Assembly: GCF_900070205.1 (NCBI RefSeq)
Contig: NZ_FAOO01000004.1
Location: 53,454 to 117,453 of the forward strand
From: Candidatus Thermokryptus mobilis
GTDB taxonomy: Bacteria; Bacteroidota; Ignavibacteria; Kryptoniales; Kryptoniaceae
DNA length: 64,000 bases
Direction: 5' to 3'
Position numbers and translations under genes: made by a program. Position 1 is the first letter of the stretch, and every line of letters begins with the position of its first letter. Positions 12,776 through 20,902 of this stretch are shown piece after piece. Below the pieces are notes generated by a model. It was not told the origin of the DNA, ran no database searches, and worked only from the letters and a program-made list of their open reading frames with translations.

Positions 12776-13435
12776 TCAACTATTTTCTCTGCGTTTTTTC
12801 AGAAAGTTTTGAACCTCGTCCAAATTCATAGCATTGAGAACATCTTCCTTTGTCAACATTCCTTTACGTGCCGTCCCGAGCGAAAGAAGTGTATAATGAA
12901 TCTCTCCGATCGCATGCGCATCAGGATTTATGCTTATTTTGACGCCTTTTTTCTTGGCGTAATTTATAAACCTCCAATCAATATCAAGCCGATGCGGATT
13001 TGCATTGAATTCAATGGCGACACCAAGTTTTGACGCCTCATCAATTATCCTCTTCATATTAACCGGATAACCATCCCTTCCAAGAAGGAGACGTCCTGTC
13101 GGGTGACCGATTATCGTAACATACGGGTTTCGCATTGCTTTTAAAATTCTCTCAGTTGCTTCTTCCTCCGTCATCTTGAATTTGCTGTGAATTGATGCAA
13201 TGACAAAATCAAATTTACTTAACACATCATCTGGATAATCAAGCGAACCATCTGGAAGTATATCTACTTCGCTACCTTTTAAAATTTTTATCTTGAATTT
13301 TTTCTGTAGTTCGTCAATTTCACGCCATTGTTGAATCAATCTCTCTTCAGTTAAACCGCCCGCATAATAAGCAGATTTACTATGGTCGGATATTCCCACA
13401 AATTCAAAGCCGAGTTTTTCGCATTCAGCTATCAT
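12776..13435 (-). CDS. polX: PolX C-terminal PHP domain, 3' part of a frameshifted gene
   Basis: This 219-residue part encodes the PHP phosphoesterase domain of a bacterial family X DNA polymerase. It shows GISDHS, KGSEVDI, IASIHS, GHPTGR and NPDAHA metal ligands. In B. subtilis and Thermus PolX this domain gives 3'-5' exonuclease or AP-endonuclease activity. The first metal motif (HIHSTYSDG) lies just upstream in the same frame but before the first ATG, between the shift and 13435. A protein started here would therefore lack it. The ATG overlaps the stop of the polymerase frame in ATGA. No strong SD is visible. Confidence 0.85.
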   Translation of the reverse strand: MIAECEKLGFEFVGISDHSKSAYYAGGLTEERLIQQWREIDELQKKFKIKILKGSEVDILPDGSLDYPDDVLSKFDFVIASIHSKFKMTEEEATERILKAMRNPYVTIIGHPTGRLLLGRDGYPVNMKRIIDEASKLGVAIEFNANPHRLDIDWRFINYAKKKGVKISINPDAHAIGEIHYTLLSLGTARKGMLTKEDVLNAMNLDEVQNFLKKRRENS

Positions 13436-14499
13436 ATCTTCAAGCGTGTCGGAACCATCGCTGTAGGTTGAATGAATGTGAAAATGCCTTTTAAATCCCT
13501 TTCGGTTAAAAGCTCTGGAATTTCACCTCTTAAGGCAAGTTCAATTTCATCAAACCCCTCCCTTAACTCTGGTGGTATAAAATTCATCCCAAAAGCTTTA
13601 AAAATTTCCTCTTCGCTTGTAAATTTCATCTTGTCTGAATTTTTAAAAATACCGTTCTCGTTAAGCACAAAGCCATTCCTCTTAATATGCTCTTCAAAAT
13701 TTCTTAGAAAATCTTTGCTCCCGGTTGTATAGAAAACCTTAAAAGCGTAATCTTCGTCCGCAAGTATGAAGTCAACATTCATCCCTGAATTTGAAAGCAA
13801 ACTTATAAAATTATCGGCGGAACTGATAACTCTAATTGATGGGAATTTCGTGCTTATCAAGTTAATTATATTTTTGAACTCATTTTTCCTTGCTTTCAGG
13901 ACGACATCAATATCTCGTATTATTTCCCGTTTTCTTCTGAAACTTCCTGTGATTGTGAAATTGTCTTCGCCGAGGTGATTTCTGATGAATTCGTTTACAA
14001 TTTCGGCAGTTTCAAATGCAGAGGGTAAAAGGTGATATGCAGATGAGCGTTTCAGACGTTCAATTTCTTTGAGAACTTTCTCTTGTATGGTTTTCCCAAA
14101 TCCTTCAAGTTTTAGGAGGCGGTTTTCTTTACATGCATATTCAAGTTCGGCAAGCGTTGTGACGCCAAGTTTTTCATAAATTGCTTTTATTCTTTTCGGA
14201 CCCAAACCACGAATTTGAAGAAGCTCAAAAAGTCCCTCAGGGATTGATTTTTTTAAGTCATCGTAATATCTAAGCCCACCCGTGTTGACGAGTTCTTTTA
14301 TCTTTTCAAAAAGATTCGGACCTATACCTTTAATTTTAGCAAGTTCTCCCGTTTCAACAAGTTCCTTCAAGTCACCTTTCAACTCTCGTATTATTCTTGA
14401 TGCGTTGCGATATGCTCTCGCTTTAAATTCAACCTCGCCTTTTAATTCAAGAATATCGGCTATCTCTTCAAGTATTTCTGCTATTTGCTTTTTATCCAT
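13432..14499 (-). CDS. polX: DNA polymerase family X, N-terminal polymerase part (frame ends early)
   Basis: The 355-residue part has three helix-hairpin-helix motifs (KIKGIGPNLFEKI, QIRGLGPKRIKAI, KLEGFGKTIQEKV) and the nucleotidyltransferase core GSFRRKREIIRDIDVV. A third acidic residue lies in NVDFILAD. It is a gap-filling repair polymerase. The frame leaves the conserved sequence after LTERDLKG and ends 15 codons later. The -1 frame continues as HFHIHSTYSDGSDTLEDM into the PHP domain. The switch lies on T TTA AAA (13490-13496), a canonical slippery heptamer. The joined protein would be about 580 residues, normal for bacterial PolX. Confidence 0.88.
   Translation of the reverse strand: MDKKQIAEILEEIADILELKGEVEFKARAYRNASRIIRELKGDLKELVETGELAKIKGIGPNLFEKIKELVNTGGLRYYDDLKKSIPEGLFELLQIRGLGPKRIKAIYEKLGVTTLAELEYACKENRLLKLEGFGKTIQEKVLKEIERLKRSSAYHLLPSAFETAEIVNEFIRNHLGEDNFTITGSFRRKREIIRDIDVVLKARKNEFKNIINLISTKFPSIRVISSADNFISLLSNSGMNVDFILADEDYAFKVFYTTGSKDFLRNFEEHIKRNGFVLNENGIFKNSDKMKFTSEEEIFKAFGMNFIPPELREGFDEIELALRGEIPELLTERDLKGIFTFIQPTAMVPTRLKI
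13490..13496 (-). other. Slippery heptamer T TTA AAA at the PolX frame switch
   Basis: On the coding (minus) strand the zero-frame codons GAT TTA AAA GGC contain the X XXY YYZ heptamer TTTAAAA. A -1 slip here continues as AGG CAT TTT CAC, which is the frame of the PHP domain. GAAAGGGA, a Shine-Dalgarno-like run, lies directly before it, closer than in dnaX. Downstream pairing is weak (AACC/GGTT). It may be a programmed site or a coincidence next to a one-base deletion. Confidence 0.4.
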
Positions 14500-15907: not shown

Positions 15908-17035
15908 TCATTCAACGAGCCACTTTTTCCTTTCAATGATTTTCCTCTTTTCAGCCGTTGGTTTGGGTTCATATCTGATTTCTTCAATTTCATCTTCTTT
16001 AACATCAGGATACACATAGATTTCATACTTGAAATTACGCACTATTATCTCGTTTTCATTATGCGCAATTACATATTGTGGAAGTATCGGGATTTTACCT
16101 CCACCGCCAGGGGCATCTATGACATAGTATGGAACTGCAAGTCCAGAGATATGACCTCGGAGCTTATCCATTATTTCAATTCCGACTTTTATTGGGGTCC
16201 TAAAATGATTTGCACCTCTTGTTATATCGGCTTGGTATATGTAATAAGGTCTAACTCTTATTGCGAGAAGTTTTTTCATAAGTTCTTGCATAACATATGG
16301 ATCGTCATTGACGCCTCTTAATAGCACCGTTTGATTTCCGACAGGTATTCCAGCGTCAGCTAGCATCTCGCAAGCGCGTTTACTCTCGGGCGTTATCTCC
16401 CAAGGATGGTTGAAATGTGTGTTAACATAAATCGGATGATATTTCTTCAGCATATTGCATAAATTTTCAGTTATCCTTTGGGGCAAAACACAAGGCATCT
16501 TCGTCCCAATTCTTATTATTTCAACATGGGGGATTTCCCTTAACGCTTTTATTATCTTCTCAAGCATATAATCCGTCAACATCAACGGGTCCCCACCAGA
16601 TAAAATTACATCTCTGACCTCAGGATGATTGCGTATGTATTCAATTCCATCTTGGATGAATTTCATATTTATCTTGCTTGAATCCCCGACTTTTCTTTTT
16701 CTTGTGCAGAACCTACAATACATTGAGCATTGGCTTGTCACAAGGAAAAGGACTCTATCTGGGTATCGGTGTGTAATGCTTGGCACAGGGCTCATCGCAT
16801 CTTCATCAAGCGGGTCCTCGGGCATGGCCTCGTCTTCAAGTTCCTTTATATCAGGAAAACACTGAAGCCAAATCGGGTCACCCTTGTATCGTATAAGGCT
16901 AAGGTAATATGGATTTATTCTCGCCGGGTATCTTTCTATAATTTTTCTCATCAAGTCCTTATCAACTCCAAATACCTCGGCGAAGTCCTCCGCTGTGTCT
17001 ATGCTTTGTCTAAGTAATTCCTGCCAGAGTTCCAT
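15908..17035 (-). CDS. kamA: Lysine 2,3-aminomutase (KamA family radical SAM enzyme)
   Basis: The 375-residue protein converts L-lysine to beta-lysine using a 4Fe-4S cluster, SAM and PLP. Cys103, Cys107 and Cys110 form the CxxxCxxC cluster motif. Asp270, Asp307 and Lys314 match the clostridial residues that hold the lysine side-chain amine (two Asp) and PLP (Lys), with identical spacing (37 and 7). The C-terminal zinc cysteines of the clostridial enzyme are absent. AAGGAGG 6 bases before the ATG at 17035 fixes the start; an upstream in-frame TTG at 17062 is rejected. It is the last gene of an operon with a GNAT acetyltransferase and two ATP-grasp ligases. Confidence 0.9.
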   Translation of the reverse strand: MELWQELLRQSIDTAEDFAEVFGVDKDLMRKIIERYPARINPYYLSLIRYKGDPIWLQCFPDIKELEDEAMPEDPLDEDAMSPVPSITHRYPDRVLFLVTSQCSMYCRFCTRKRKVGDSSKINMKFIQDGIEYIRNHPEVRDVILSGGDPLMLTDYMLEKIIKALREIPHVEIIRIGTKMPCVLPQRITENLCNMLKKYHPIYVNTHFNHPWEITPESKRACEMLADAGIPVGNQTVLLRGVNDDPYVMQELMKKLLAIRVRPYYIYQADITRGANHFRTPIKVGIEIMDKLRGHISGLAVPYYVIDAPGGGGKIPILPQYVIAHNENEIIVRNFKYEIYVYPDVKEDEIEEIRYEPKPTAEKRKIIERKKWLVE

Positions 17036-17045
17036 TTTTGCCTCC

Positions 17046-17519
17046 TTAGATATATTTTGCAAAAATTATTAAATCGTCGGTCGGTTTATAGAAATCCCTT
17101 ATGCGTGCTACCTCTGTGTATCCGCACGCATTGTAAAATGAAATAGTCCTTTGATATTTTTCCTGAGAAGATGTCTCCACAAGAATTAACATGCCTCCTT
17201 TCTCTTTTATTTTTTGTTCAGTGAATTTTATCAAACTTTTTCCAATTCCATTTCCCTGATAGCAAGGGTCAACCGCTATCCAATAAATATCATAAGTCGC
17301 AATTGTCAAAGGTCTTTTCCCAAAGCATATATATCCAATTGATTCGTCATCTTCATTTACAGCTGTGTAAATTTCATAACCACTTGCTTCGCCTTTCTCT
17401 AAAAACTCATCTATCAATTCCATCGCAACATTTATCTCCTCATCGGTAAACATATCTGTAGCCGATAAAATGTCTTTTATTTTTTCTCTGTCCTTATTTA
17501 GCAAACTTCTTATCCGCAT
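17046..17519 (-). CDS. GNAT family N-acetyltransferase
   Basis: The 157-residue protein has the acetyl-CoA binding motif A (VDPCYQGNGIGKSLIKF) and the C-terminal SFYNACGY strand of GNAT enzymes. It overlaps the 3' end of the ATP-grasp gene by 26 bases and ends 10 bases before kamA, so it belongs to one operon. By context it may acetylate an amino group of lysine, beta-lysine or a conjugate. It is much shorter than the known beta-lysine acetyltransferase AblB (about 270 residues), so equivalence cannot be assumed. I chose the ATG at 17519; a TTG at 17531 is possible. Confidence 0.85.
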   Translation of the reverse strand: MRIRSLLNKDREKIKDILSATDMFTDEEINVAMELIDEFLEKGEASGYEIYTAVNEDDESIGYICFGKRPLTIATYDIYWIAVDPCYQGNGIGKSLIKFTEQKIKEKGGMLILVETSSQEKYQRTISFYNACGYTEVARIRDFYKPTDDLIIFAKYI

Positions 17520-18528
17520 AGCTTCTTTCAATTGCTATTTCTGCAATTTTAACTATGGTTTCCTCCGGTGTCAATCCGTAGACAGACGCTGACCTCATAA
17601 AACCAGCATTCCTTGAAAGGTCTGGATTCGGGTTAACTTCAAGAACATACGGGTTTCCTTCTTTATCAATTCTTATATCAACTCTTGCGTAATCACGACA
17701 ACCCATAATTTTATAGCAAGACAGAGCTATATCTTTGATTTTATTTTCAAGTTCGGGTTCAAGTGGAGCTGGACAAATCGGAATTGTTTTTTCGTAGTAA
17801 TCTGTATTGGGGATCCACTTCGCCTCATAACTTACAATTTTCGGTAAATGAGATGGGAGACGGGAGAAATCTATTTCAGAAATTGGCAAAACCACAGGTG
17901 GATTATTACCAAGTATGGCAACATTTACCTCTCTTCCGTCAATGAATTCTTCAACAAGAGCTGGTTGTTTAAACATTTTGACTATGTATTCAACCCTTTC
18001 TTCAAGTTCTTTCCAATTATAGACCACAGATTTTTCATTTATCCCGGCGCTTGCATCTTCATGAACAGGTTTCACAATGACAGGGAATTGGAGATTAATT
18101 TTTTTGTATCCATCAATGCCTTCATTGAAAAGGTCAAATTTGGCGGTTGGAATTCCATAGTGTGATAGCATGATTTTTGTCTTCGCTTTATCAAGGCACA
18201 GCCCAAGTGTCATCGGTGTAGCTCCGGTATATGGAATTTTTAAAAGCTCGTAAATCCCCGCTGCGAAAATTTCCTCTTGAGATTCAGATTCAACTATCTC
18301 ACAAAAGTTATAAATAAGGTCAGTTTTCAAATTTAGCATGTCGTTTATGAAACATCTTGCATTATAAACGGGCAAAACACTAACTTTAAAGCCAGCATTT
18401 CGGAGCGAGTTTTCTATGAATTCAATTTCACTTTTAACCCCGATTATTGAAGTATCCAGATTTTGAGGATCTGGCTCAATTTTTTCAGGGTCGTTATATA
18501 CAATTGTTATTTCAAATGGCTTGGACAT
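17494..18528 (-). CDS. ATP-grasp amino acid ligase, D-Ala-D-Ala ligase-like (second of a tandem pair)
   Basis: The 344-residue protein has the Ddl-type ATP-grasp core: IPYTGATPMTLGLCLDK, FPVIVKPVHEDASAGI, PALVEEFIDGREVNVAILG and the metal-binding end YVLEVNPNPDLS. The N-terminal GGxSxERxVS segment that binds the first D-Ala in true Ddl is missing (VYNDPEKIEPD instead). The substrate is therefore probably another amino acid or peptide. It is a clear paralogue of the gene 45 bases upstream. With kamA and the GNAT gene it may form an amide bond involving lysine or beta-lysine (inference). Confidence 0.85.
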   Translation of the reverse strand: MSKPFEITIVYNDPEKIEPDPQNLDTSIIGVKSEIEFIENSLRNAGFKVSVLPVYNARCFINDMLNLKTDLIYNFCEIVESESQEEIFAAGIYELLKIPYTGATPMTLGLCLDKAKTKIMLSHYGIPTAKFDLFNEGIDGYKKINLQFPVIVKPVHEDASAGINEKSVVYNWKELEERVEYIVKMFKQPALVEEFIDGREVNVAILGNNPPVVLPISEIDFSRLPSHLPKIVSYEAKWIPNTDYYEKTIPICPAPLEPELENKIKDIALSCYKIMGCRDYARVDIRIDKEGNPYVLEVNPNPDLSRNAGFMRSASVYGLTPEETIVKIAEIAIERSYADKKFAK

Positions 18529-18573
18529 AAAAATAGCGTTTATATTTTAAATCCGATTGATATTCAAGCATTT

Positions 18574-19671
18574 TTAAATCATCCCATATCTTTTCAAGGC
18601 AGAATTTAAAACCTCGTTTATCATTTGGTTGTAAGTTAATCCTGCTGCACGTGCTGCTTTTGGGAAACAGGAGTTATCATCTGGATTTGGAAGGATCCCG
18701 GGTAGGGGATTTACTTCAAGGATGTTGGGTATTCCCTCTTTGTCAAGTCGTAAGTCAATTCTACACCAATCCCGACAGCGTAAAACTTTAAATGTTGAAA
18801 GGGCTATTTTTTCTATCATCTCTTTGAGTTTATCGTCAATTTCAGCGGGACATTGGAATATGTCAAGTGGTTTTTCAGGAGTGTCCCATATCCATTTGGC
18901 TTCAAAAGAATAAATGGGTTTTGCTTCCGGTGGTAGAGAATCAAATTTTATTTCAATTATCGGCAGAACCCTTGCTTCCTTTCCATTGCCAAGAATTGCG
19001 ACGGTGAACTCGCGACCAGGAAGAAATTCCTCAACAAGGGCTGGTTCATTGTATGAGTTCAAGATCCTTTCAATTTCTGATATCAATTCTTTTTCATTTG
19101 AGACAACCGATGAGTTGAAAATCCCTTTGCTTGAGCCCTCGTGCAAAGGTTTGACGATAAGGGGGAAGTTTAGATCTGCTATTCCATCAAATTCTTCAAG
19201 TGATTCAACCGTGAAAAATTTTGCCGTTGGAATTTTATAGTATGATAAAATTTCTTTTGTTCGTGCCTTATCAAGGCAAATGGCAAGTGTCAAGGGATCG
19301 CTACCTGTATAGGGGATATTAAGCATTTCAAGTATAGCAGGGATTTGCGCCTCTCTACTTACCCCGTAGAAACCCTCGGCTATGTTGAAAACGATATCAG
19401 GTCTTATCTTTCTTAATTTTTCAAACGCATCTTCATCAGCTTCAATCAGTGTGACATTGTGATTTTCTTCAAGGGCTGATTTTACTGCGTTTATCGTCTC
19501 CCAGGTGTCCCACTCTGCGTAGGTGTCATCAATTGTTAATTTTTTTTCAGCGATTTTTTTATTTAACAACTTAACACTACTAAACGAGTCATCACCTGAA
19601 GAATCATCGTTGAACGAGTCCTTAACAGAATTTCTTTCTTTCTTCAGGTTGAACACCAAGCCAACATGCAT
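18574..19671 (-). CDS. ATP-grasp amino acid ligase, D-Ala-D-Ala ligase-like (first of a tandem pair)
   Basis: The 365-residue protein shows the same ATP-grasp architecture as its neighbour: IPYTGSDPLTLAICLDK, FPLIVKPLHEGSSKGI, PALVEEFLPGREFTVAILG, NILEVNPLPGILPN. It also keeps an EG-FYGVSREAQIPA region closer to Ddl. An insert rich in Ser/Asp (DDSSGDDSF) lies near residue 25. The glycine-rich first-substrate motif of Ddl is absent. I chose the ATG at 19671 (MHVGLVFNLKKE); the frame is open to a TTG at 19707. A good promoter lies upstream, so this is the first gene of the four-gene operon. Confidence 0.84.
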   Translation of the reverse strand: MHVGLVFNLKKERNSVKDSFNDDSSGDDSFSSVKLLNKKIAEKKLTIDDTYAEWDTWETINAVKSALEENHNVTLIEADEDAFEKLRKIRPDIVFNIAEGFYGVSREAQIPAILEMLNIPYTGSDPLTLAICLDKARTKEILSYYKIPTAKFFTVESLEEFDGIADLNFPLIVKPLHEGSSKGIFNSSVVSNEKELISEIERILNSYNEPALVEEFLPGREFTVAILGNGKEARVLPIIEIKFDSLPPEAKPIYSFEAKWIWDTPEKPLDIFQCPAEIDDKLKEMIEKIALSTFKVLRCRDWCRIDLRLDKEGIPNILEVNPLPGILPNPDDNSCFPKAARAAGLTYNQMINEVLNSALKRYGMI

Positions 19672-19712
19672 AAAGATGCAACAACCTTTGTTTTTAATCT
19701 CTCTCAATCATA

Positions 19713-19740
19713 AATATAATATTTTTTTTGAAATTGTCAA
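19713..19740 (-). promoter_or_regulatory. Sigma-70-type promoter of the ATP-grasp/GNAT/kamA operon
   Basis: On the minus strand TTGACA (19740-19735), a 16-base spacer and TATATT (19718-19713) stand about 40 bases before the start of the first ATP-grasp gene. The same TTGACAATTTCA start occurs at the promoter assigned to the Lrp-type gene. Confidence 0.55.
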
Positions 19741-19810
19741 GAGGCAAAAGCGGTTTGGGTTGAATTTTTGTATTGTTGAGTTTATATTAAAACAAAAAGA
19801 TCTCGTAATT

Positions 19811-20902
19811 ATGACACGCCCAAAGGTCGCTGTTTTAAAAACGAGACCGGAGACGGTAATTCAAGATATAGAGAAATTGATGAAGCTTGCAGAGTTTGAA
19901 AAATTTCTTGATAAAAATTCCGTTACCATTTTAAAGGATAACATATCTTGGCACTTCCCTTATCTTAGTTCAAACACCACACCTTGGCAACTTGAGGGAA
20001 CTATAATTGCTTTGAAAAACGCGGGATATGATAAACTTGTTGCAGTTCATAACAACACAGTTGTAACCGATCCATTCAAAGGTTGCAAACTTAACAAGTT
20101 AACACCGATATACAAAAAATATGGAGTTGAGGAGAGATACAATTTTCTTGAGTCGGATATAAAGTGGGTAAGGTATGAACCAAAGCACAAAATGCTCGCC
20201 CTTCACAAAATATACCCGAACGGAATTCACATTCCTGAATTTTTCATCGGGAAGAACATCTTGCACTTACCAACGATGAAGACGCATATCTACACAACGA
20301 CGACAGGTGCTATGAAAAATGCTTTCGGTGGCTTGCTTAACACAAGGAGACATTACACCCACACTTGGATACATGAAACACTTGTTGATCTCCTCGCCAT
20401 TCAAAAAGAGATTCACACGGGCATATTTGCTGTAATGGACGGAACGATCGCAGGTAATGGACCTGGTCCAAGAACGATGATACCTGTTGAGACAAATTTT
20501 ATACTTGCAAGCGCTGATCAAGTTGCTATTGATGCTGTATCTGCAAAGATGATGGGGTTTGACCCGATGAGCATAAAGTATATTCGCCTCGCTCACGAAG
20601 CCAAGCTTGGAACTGGTGACCCGAGAGAAATTGAAATAGTTGGCGAGGATATTTCAAATGTGAACTTGAAATTTTTCGTCGGTGATAACGCAGCAAGTAG
20701 GGTTGGAGATATACTCTGGTTTGGTCCTTTGAAGGGGATTCAATACATATTTTTTAGGACGCCCCTTGTATATATTTTCGTTTTTGCTTCTTACTTTTAT
20801 CACGACTTTGTTTGGTGGCCACTTAAGGGGAAGAAAATTCAGGAAAATTTGAGAAAAACCTCACAGTGGGGGAAACTTTTTGAAAACTACCCAATGGACT
20901 AA
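19811..20902 (+). CDS. DUF362 domain protein
   Basis: The 363-residue protein matches the DUF362 family: LKDNISWHFPYLSSNTTPWQLEGTI is followed by HLPTMKTHIYTTTTGAMKNAFGGLL and MDGTIAGNGPGPR. Some members carry a C-terminal ferredoxin domain; this one does not. It ends with a hydrophobic segment (YIFFRTPLVYIFVFASYF) and a basic tail, so it may be membrane-attached. The biochemical function of the family is not established. The frame is open far upstream, but MTRPK at 19811 fits the start of the domain; no clear SD is present. It is divergent from the ATP-grasp/kamA operon. Confidence 0.82.
   Translation: MTRPKVAVLKTRPETVIQDIEKLMKLAEFEKFLDKNSVTILKDNISWHFPYLSSNTTPWQLEGTIIALKNAGYDKLVAVHNNTVVTDPFKGCKLNKLTPIYKKYGVEERYNFLESDIKWVRYEPKHKMLALHKIYPNGIHIPEFFIGKNILHLPTMKTHIYTTTTGAMKNAFGGLLNTRRHYTHTWIHETLVDLLAIQKEIHTGIFAVMDGTIAGNGPGPRTMIPVETNFILASADQVAIDAVSAKMMGFDPMSIKYIRLAHEAKLGTGDPREIEIVGEDISNVNLKFFVGDNAASRVGDILWFGPLKGIQYIFFRTPLVYIFVFASYFYHDFVWWPLKGKKIQENLRKTSQWGKLFENYPMD

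Follow-up and report, generated by a model that had tools for sequence, protein, structure and literature searches.

A conserved set of two Ddl-type ligases, an acetyltransferase and a lysine 2,3-aminomutase in Kryptonia and its relatives: a candidate route to an acetylated beta-lysine peptide

What could two Ddl-type ATP-grasp ligases, a short GNAT acetyltransferase and a lysine 2,3-aminomutase (KamA), encoded side by side in Candidatus Thermokryptus mobilis, make together? An initial annotation of the window (the 64,000-nucleotide stretch of this genome that was analysed) had proposed that they join beta-lysine to another amino acid and acetylate the product. Of this proposal, a coupled pathway distinct from ablA/ablB is supported at the genomic level, and an acetylated beta-lysine conjugate is a candidate product. 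The four genes make up a well-bounded set that is inherited and lost together and matches no described pathway, and it is small enough for joint expression and direct testing.

The locus in the window

The four open reading frames are all on the minus strand, spanning positions 15908-19671, and are transcribed in the order LigA, LigB, GNAT, KamA, downstream of a promoter-like site:

19713..19740, minus strand: sigma-70-like promoter site upstream of LigA (TTGACA, 16-base spacer, TATATT; 11/12 consensus)
18574..19671, minus strand: LigA, Ddl-type ATP-grasp ligase of 365 aa, with a rebuilt donor site and Ddl-like acceptor residues
17494..18528, minus strand: LigB, second Ddl-type ATP-grasp ligase, 344 aa, with donor and acceptor sites both rebuilt
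17046..17519, minus strand: GNAT acetyltransferase of 157 aa, with 2R7H as its closest solved relative
15908..17035, minus strand: KamA, lysine 2,3-aminomutase subtype of 375 aa, lacking the C-terminal zinc-cysteine tail

Computed with ATG start codons that agree with relatives, the spacing consists of a 45-base gap between LigA and LigB, a 26-base overlap between LigB and GNAT, and a 10-base gap between GNAT and KamA, so that the tight single-strand arrangement originally described is exact in all three distances; the TTG starts of the mechanical ORF list (19707, 17531 and 17062) are probably too early. The single strong promoter in the same description fares less well: the sigma-70-like site does lie 5' of LigA, but such sites are no commoner in the region than in shuffled sequence (10 found versus 13.1 expected), and therefore only its location argues for the site at 19740-19713. 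Among named organisms, the nearest LigB relatives come from Ca. Thermokryptus, at 92% identity, and from Ca. Kryptonium thompsonii, at 78%, which places the window in the Kryptonia.

A divergent DUF362 gene is listed at 19523-20902 on the plus strand from a GTG codon within LigA; its real start is probably an ATG near 19811. A PolX-type DNA polymerase gene (12776-14499, minus strand) is split into two open reading frames of 355 aa and 219 aa by a one-base difference in a run of T, either an assembly sequence error or a recent frameshift; in Kryptonium (L009) the PolX-type polymerase is a single open reading frame of 579 aa.

Conservation and co-inheritance of the four genes

The order LigA-LigB-GNAT-KamA was found in relatives within the genus and in most of the families of the class that were opened. 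A gene that looks like recG on visual inspection often precedes the operon directly, and the genes that follow the operon vary. In a draw from the class, 103 of 149 genomes, representing 55 of 82 genera, gave LigA matches at E values of up to 1e-40; a few of these are only LigB-like. In a draw of 248 genomes from the phylum, LigA and GNAT were each present in 43 genomes and together in 42, and KamA was found with high scores in the same 42. The sole LigA genome lacking GNAT and KamA (G062) is accounted for by a contig that stops inside LigB. A Fisher test of the association gave p 2.8e-45, a value that ignores shared ancestry and is therefore read only as very strong association. The initial annotation had regarded rare co-occurrence elsewhere as fatal to its pathway idea; with 42 of 43 LigA genomes carrying both GNAT and KamA, the idea is not refuted on this count.

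Absence is as coordinated as presence: the 19 listed class members without LigA are also without KamA and GNAT, and without LigB except for a copy in G133. Some of these genomes belong to families that otherwise carry the set (G027 and G082 to f10, G141 and G133 to f21), which suggests joint gene loss. Outside the class, six genomes of families f43 and f28 possess all four genes far apart, often on different contigs; because the genes are dispersed yet all kept, their association is not explained by shared chromosomal position. The FMO protein is present in these six genomes and in four ablAB-bearing genomes of family f30, which identifies both groups as green sulfur bacteria. Class-wide gene order, a near-perfect phylogenetic profile, retention when dispersed and loss as a group strongly support, at the genomic level, the conclusion that the four genes are a functional unit.

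A standalone LigB paralogue, located away from the operon, was observed in several families of the class (L111, L112, L113, L114, L115, L116 and L117), and the LigB retained by G133 is of this kind. LigB-type enzymes can therefore serve another purpose.

Residues that set the four enzymes apart

KamA aligns over residues 9-352 with the solved lysine 2,3-aminomutase 2A5H (E 3.4e-125), and in the Pfam/NCBIfam search it scored 502 bits against the lysine 2,3-aminomutase profile TIGR03820, under the cut-off of 525. The CxxxCxxC radical-SAM cysteines and the PLP lysine K337 are kept in 37 of 37 operon copies, as are R134, D293 and D330, which differ in some distant KamA copies. In lysine 2,3-aminomutase, D293 and D330 read the side-chain amine of lysine and R134 serves the carboxylate. 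The earlier observation that KamA keeps both aspartates and the PLP lysine thus extends to all 37 operon copies, and its predicted product agrees with the retention of all lysine-specific residues; on these residues, we strongly infer that KamA would make beta-lysine from L-lysine. The C-terminal zinc-binding cysteine motif is missing from the operon and f43 KamA tails that were read and present in AblA of ablB genomes. This tail is not needed for the reaction class and marks a subtype of KamA; in the tree, KamA of the four-gene set forms a clade of its own (support 0.97), separate from the AblA clade (support 1.0).

LigA and LigB both match Pfam Dala_Dala_lig_C and have Ddl as their best sequence match, with scores that, among the matches listed, miss the Ddl cut-offs (209 bits versus 243 for LigA, 150 versus 243 for LigB, and lower values against the remaining Ddl profiles). 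With the role of each Ddl residue assigned after DdlB, the ATP and magnesium residues K97, K144, E180, E187, K215, R255, D257, E270 and N272 are invariant in 62 LigA and 64 operon LigB sequences. The GGxSxERxVS segment, including E15, is not conserved in these same sequences. All 11 Ddl compared keep the Gly-Gly, Ser and Glu of the segment without exception, and in Ddl this Glu holds the alpha-amino group of the donor. The ATP-grasp core without the GGxSxERxVS segment, first noticed in one genome, is thereby borne out in both ligase families. Three further positions are replaced throughout LigA and operon LigB: H63 by Glu, D69 by Glu and Y216 by Trp. Loss of the donor-amino Glu and a rebuilt donor site shared by both ligases would be expected if the donor were a beta-amino or N-acylated acid.

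The acceptor sites of the two ligases are dissimilar. LigA, whose first-substrate site has instead an invariant E-W-D (residues 53-55) with T59 in an AEWDTxET region, retains the Ddl acceptor residues S150, G276 and S281 across 62 homologues, and since much of the Ddl acceptor pocket is kept, its substrates could still be ordinary or D-amino acids. In the 64 LigB homologues these positions are occupied by Ala (98%), Asp (100%) and mostly Ala; lacking the grip on the acceptor carboxylate and having an invariant Asp there, LigB probably uses another, perhaps cationic, acceptor. PylC is not in the best 25 of the 42 and 45 NCBIfam matches of LigA and LigB, respectively, and those listed are all Ddl-type. 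AlphaFold models built from few sequences had pLDDT values of 54 and 63, too poor for a fold search.

This genome has a true Ddl with a GGTSPER motif at another locus, and the relatives examined have a normal Ddl too; a role of the set in replacing Ddl is therefore rejected. LigA and LigB are predicted not to be D-Ala-D-Ala ligases; normal activity of that kind, which the initial annotation had considered incompatible with its pathway, is judged from sequence only, and the sequence speaks against it.

GNAT residues 3-153 match 2R7H (E 1.4e-32), a structure deposited as a putative D-alanine N-acetyltransferase, which we take to come from Desulfovibrio; conserved residues were checked in 54 homologues. 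GNAT also resembles RimI-type protein acetyltransferases, and RimI-like GNATs are known to modify proteins as well. GNAT matches on plasmids are 30-34% identical and, where annotation is readable (an unannotated Ensifer record was left out), have neither ligases nor KamA as neighbours, which makes them probably GNATs of another kind.

A candidate pathway, its alternatives and known systems

The reading preferred here, to which we give a probability of roughly 0.55, is that the operon is an alternative to AblA/AblB whose product, probably intracellular, is a di- or tripeptide that contains beta-lysine and is acetylated. KamA would convert L-lysine to beta-lysine, the step most strongly inferred from residues, and GNAT would acetylate an amino group of either beta-lysine or the finished conjugate. 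LigA and LigB would each activate a carboxylate with ATP as an acyl phosphate and join it to an amine, the acceptor of LigB probably being different from that of LigA and perhaps cationic, to give the acetylated di- or tripeptide. This product would probably remain inside the cell, where its likeliest role is that of N-epsilon-acetyl-beta-lysine, a compatible solute or protectant. That last step is the weakest, an osmolyte role being favoured only because of analogy and the pattern with ablAB; no regulatory or transport gene linking the set to salt or heat was found. An envelope amine, another option of the initial annotation, finds no support, as the genes conserved next to the operon include no recognisable transporter or envelope gene. 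No description of the cluster was found in the open-access literature (subscription papers were outside the scope of the search), and the four-gene pathway is apparently undescribed. A wider scenario, to which we would give slightly less than even odds, is that an ancestral, undescribed four-enzyme pathway of Kryptonia, the class and some green sulfur bacteria makes an acetylated beta-lysine peptide as a new solute or cofactor-like metabolite, and that AblA/AblB replaces it in other green sulfur bacteria.

Distant relatives of the ligases are present on plasmids. Ddl-like ligases 34-38% identical to LigA were found on plasmids of rhizobia and Thioflavicoccus, and a ligase is near KamA on those of Bradyrhizobium barranii, where a gamma-glutamyltransferase lies between the two, Mesorhizobium AR10, and Thioflavicoccus mobilis, where diaminopropionate and diaminobutyrate genes are alongside. 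Other rhizobial ligase copies have no annotated KamA nearby, and the plasmid pairing is therefore suggestive only. Ddl-like ATP-grasp genes near KamA, gamma-glutamyltransferase, panD, diaminopropionate or diaminobutyrate genes were noted at L158:3198-7963, L161:6597-8954, L154:3533-9014 and L167:1997-7900; the rhizobial and Thioflavicoccus plasmid loci are possibly related metabolite clusters. Bacillota possess Ddl-like ATP-grasp proteins of about 717 aa (L012:7785-9935; also L010, L011, L013 and L015). The Evansella protein of this group also contains a fused M20 peptidase domain, and its gene adjoins those of a gamma-glutamyltranspeptidase and an N-formylglutamate amidohydrolase-like protein.

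These observations bear on several other explanations. It is unlikely that KamA and GNAT make N-acetyl-beta-lysine as AblA/AblB do while the ligases produce some other dipeptide, linked to it by nothing more than common regulation or a role in stress: GNAT could stand in for AblB, which is missing from all LigA genomes, and LigB paralogues do occur alone, but independent pathways should sometimes separate, whereas the four genes are kept or lost as a set even where dispersed, and relatives of LigA adjoin KamA on distant plasmids. Somewhat more doubtful is an exported accessory metabolite containing beta-lysine, which might act as a metal chelator, antibiotic or signal. Streptothricin and viomycin both incorporate beta-lysine, and distant relatives of the ligases are found near diaminopropionate or diaminobutyrate genes and transporters; on the other hand, no exporter is recognisably conserved next to the operon, and a set that seems to be inherited vertically across the class and is lost completely in some lineages is unlike the patchy distribution of secondary metabolites.

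We consider it improbable that the enzymes modify a macromolecule by attaching beta-lysine, or a peptide containing it, to a protein or a component of the envelope. EpmA and EpmB attach beta-lysine to EF-P in Enterobacteria, the ATP-grasp enzyme RimK modifies a ribosomal protein, and the likeness of GNAT to RimI-type enzymes would fit a macromolecular substrate. However, the substrates of Ddl-type ligases are small amino acids, the neighbourhood of the operon shows no conserved gene for a target, KamA scored only 238 bits against the EpmB profile, far below the cut-off of 369, and EpmA (TIGR00462) was over its cut-off in none of 26 sampled genomes, 22 of them carriers of the set. Finally, the notion that the ligases are D-Ala-D-Ala or resistance-type variants and that KamA begins lysine breakdown has very little to commend it beyond Ddl being the best match of both ligases, given the separate normal Ddl, the loss of the first-substrate motif in all copies and, weakly, since the control gave none either, no match to beta-lysine 5,6-aminomutase (PF09043).

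Returning to the acetylated beta-lysine peptide, the set resembles AblA/AblB in pairing a lysine 2,3-aminomutase with a GNAT acetyltransferase. The AblA/AblB route to N-epsilon-acetyl-beta-lysine is known from methanogens, green sulfur bacteria and Bacillus. The four-gene set differs in adding two ATP-grasp ligases, in a GNAT that is short (157 aa) and is not AblB, and in a KamA that belongs to a clade other than that of AblA and is without its zinc-cysteine tail. In the 248-genome draw, AblB (TIGR03827) was found in none of the 43 LigA genomes and in 16 others; the AblAB pathway is rejected for LigA genomes, and the distinction from ablA/ablB drawn in the initial annotation is supported by this result together with the separate KamA clade, although the mutual exclusion of AblB and LigA is not significant on its own (p 0.08). 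Among green sulfur bacteria, family f30 has ablAB and families f43 and f28 have the four-gene set. The ablAB genes of f30 are in line with the accumulation of N-epsilon-acetyl-beta-lysine by green sulfur bacteria attributed to Triado-Margarit 2011 (as cited in PMC12776343).

Compared with Ddl and VanA-type ligases, LigA and LigB belong to the same fold family and have every residue for ATP and magnesium, and LigA shares S150, G276 and S281 as well; unlike Ddl, both have lost GGxSxER and carry H63E, D69E and Y216W, and the acceptor site of LigB is changed. NAGGN-type solutes and carnosine synthase may be a further parallel, in which acetyltransferase plus ATP-grasp chemistry gives acetylated or beta-amino dipeptides, in pathways that have no aminomutase and use ligases of other subfamilies. 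With EpmA/EpmB the set has in common a KamA-superfamily enzyme and beta-lysine that would be made for attachment to something else; beta-lysylation of EF-P itself is rejected, with no EpmA over its cut-off in the 26 genomes sampled. The nearest functional analogy is pyrrolysine synthesis, in which lysine is rearranged by PylB and another lysine is then linked to the isomer by PylC (PMC10176472). Unlike the pyrrolysine route, the operon has a PLP-dependent 2,3-aminomutase instead of PylB, Ddl-type ligases and an acetyltransferase, and PylD was not seen among its genes; like PylB/PylC/PylD, it would combine a radical SAM rearrangement of lysine with an ATP-grasp ligase that joins the isomer to an amino acid.
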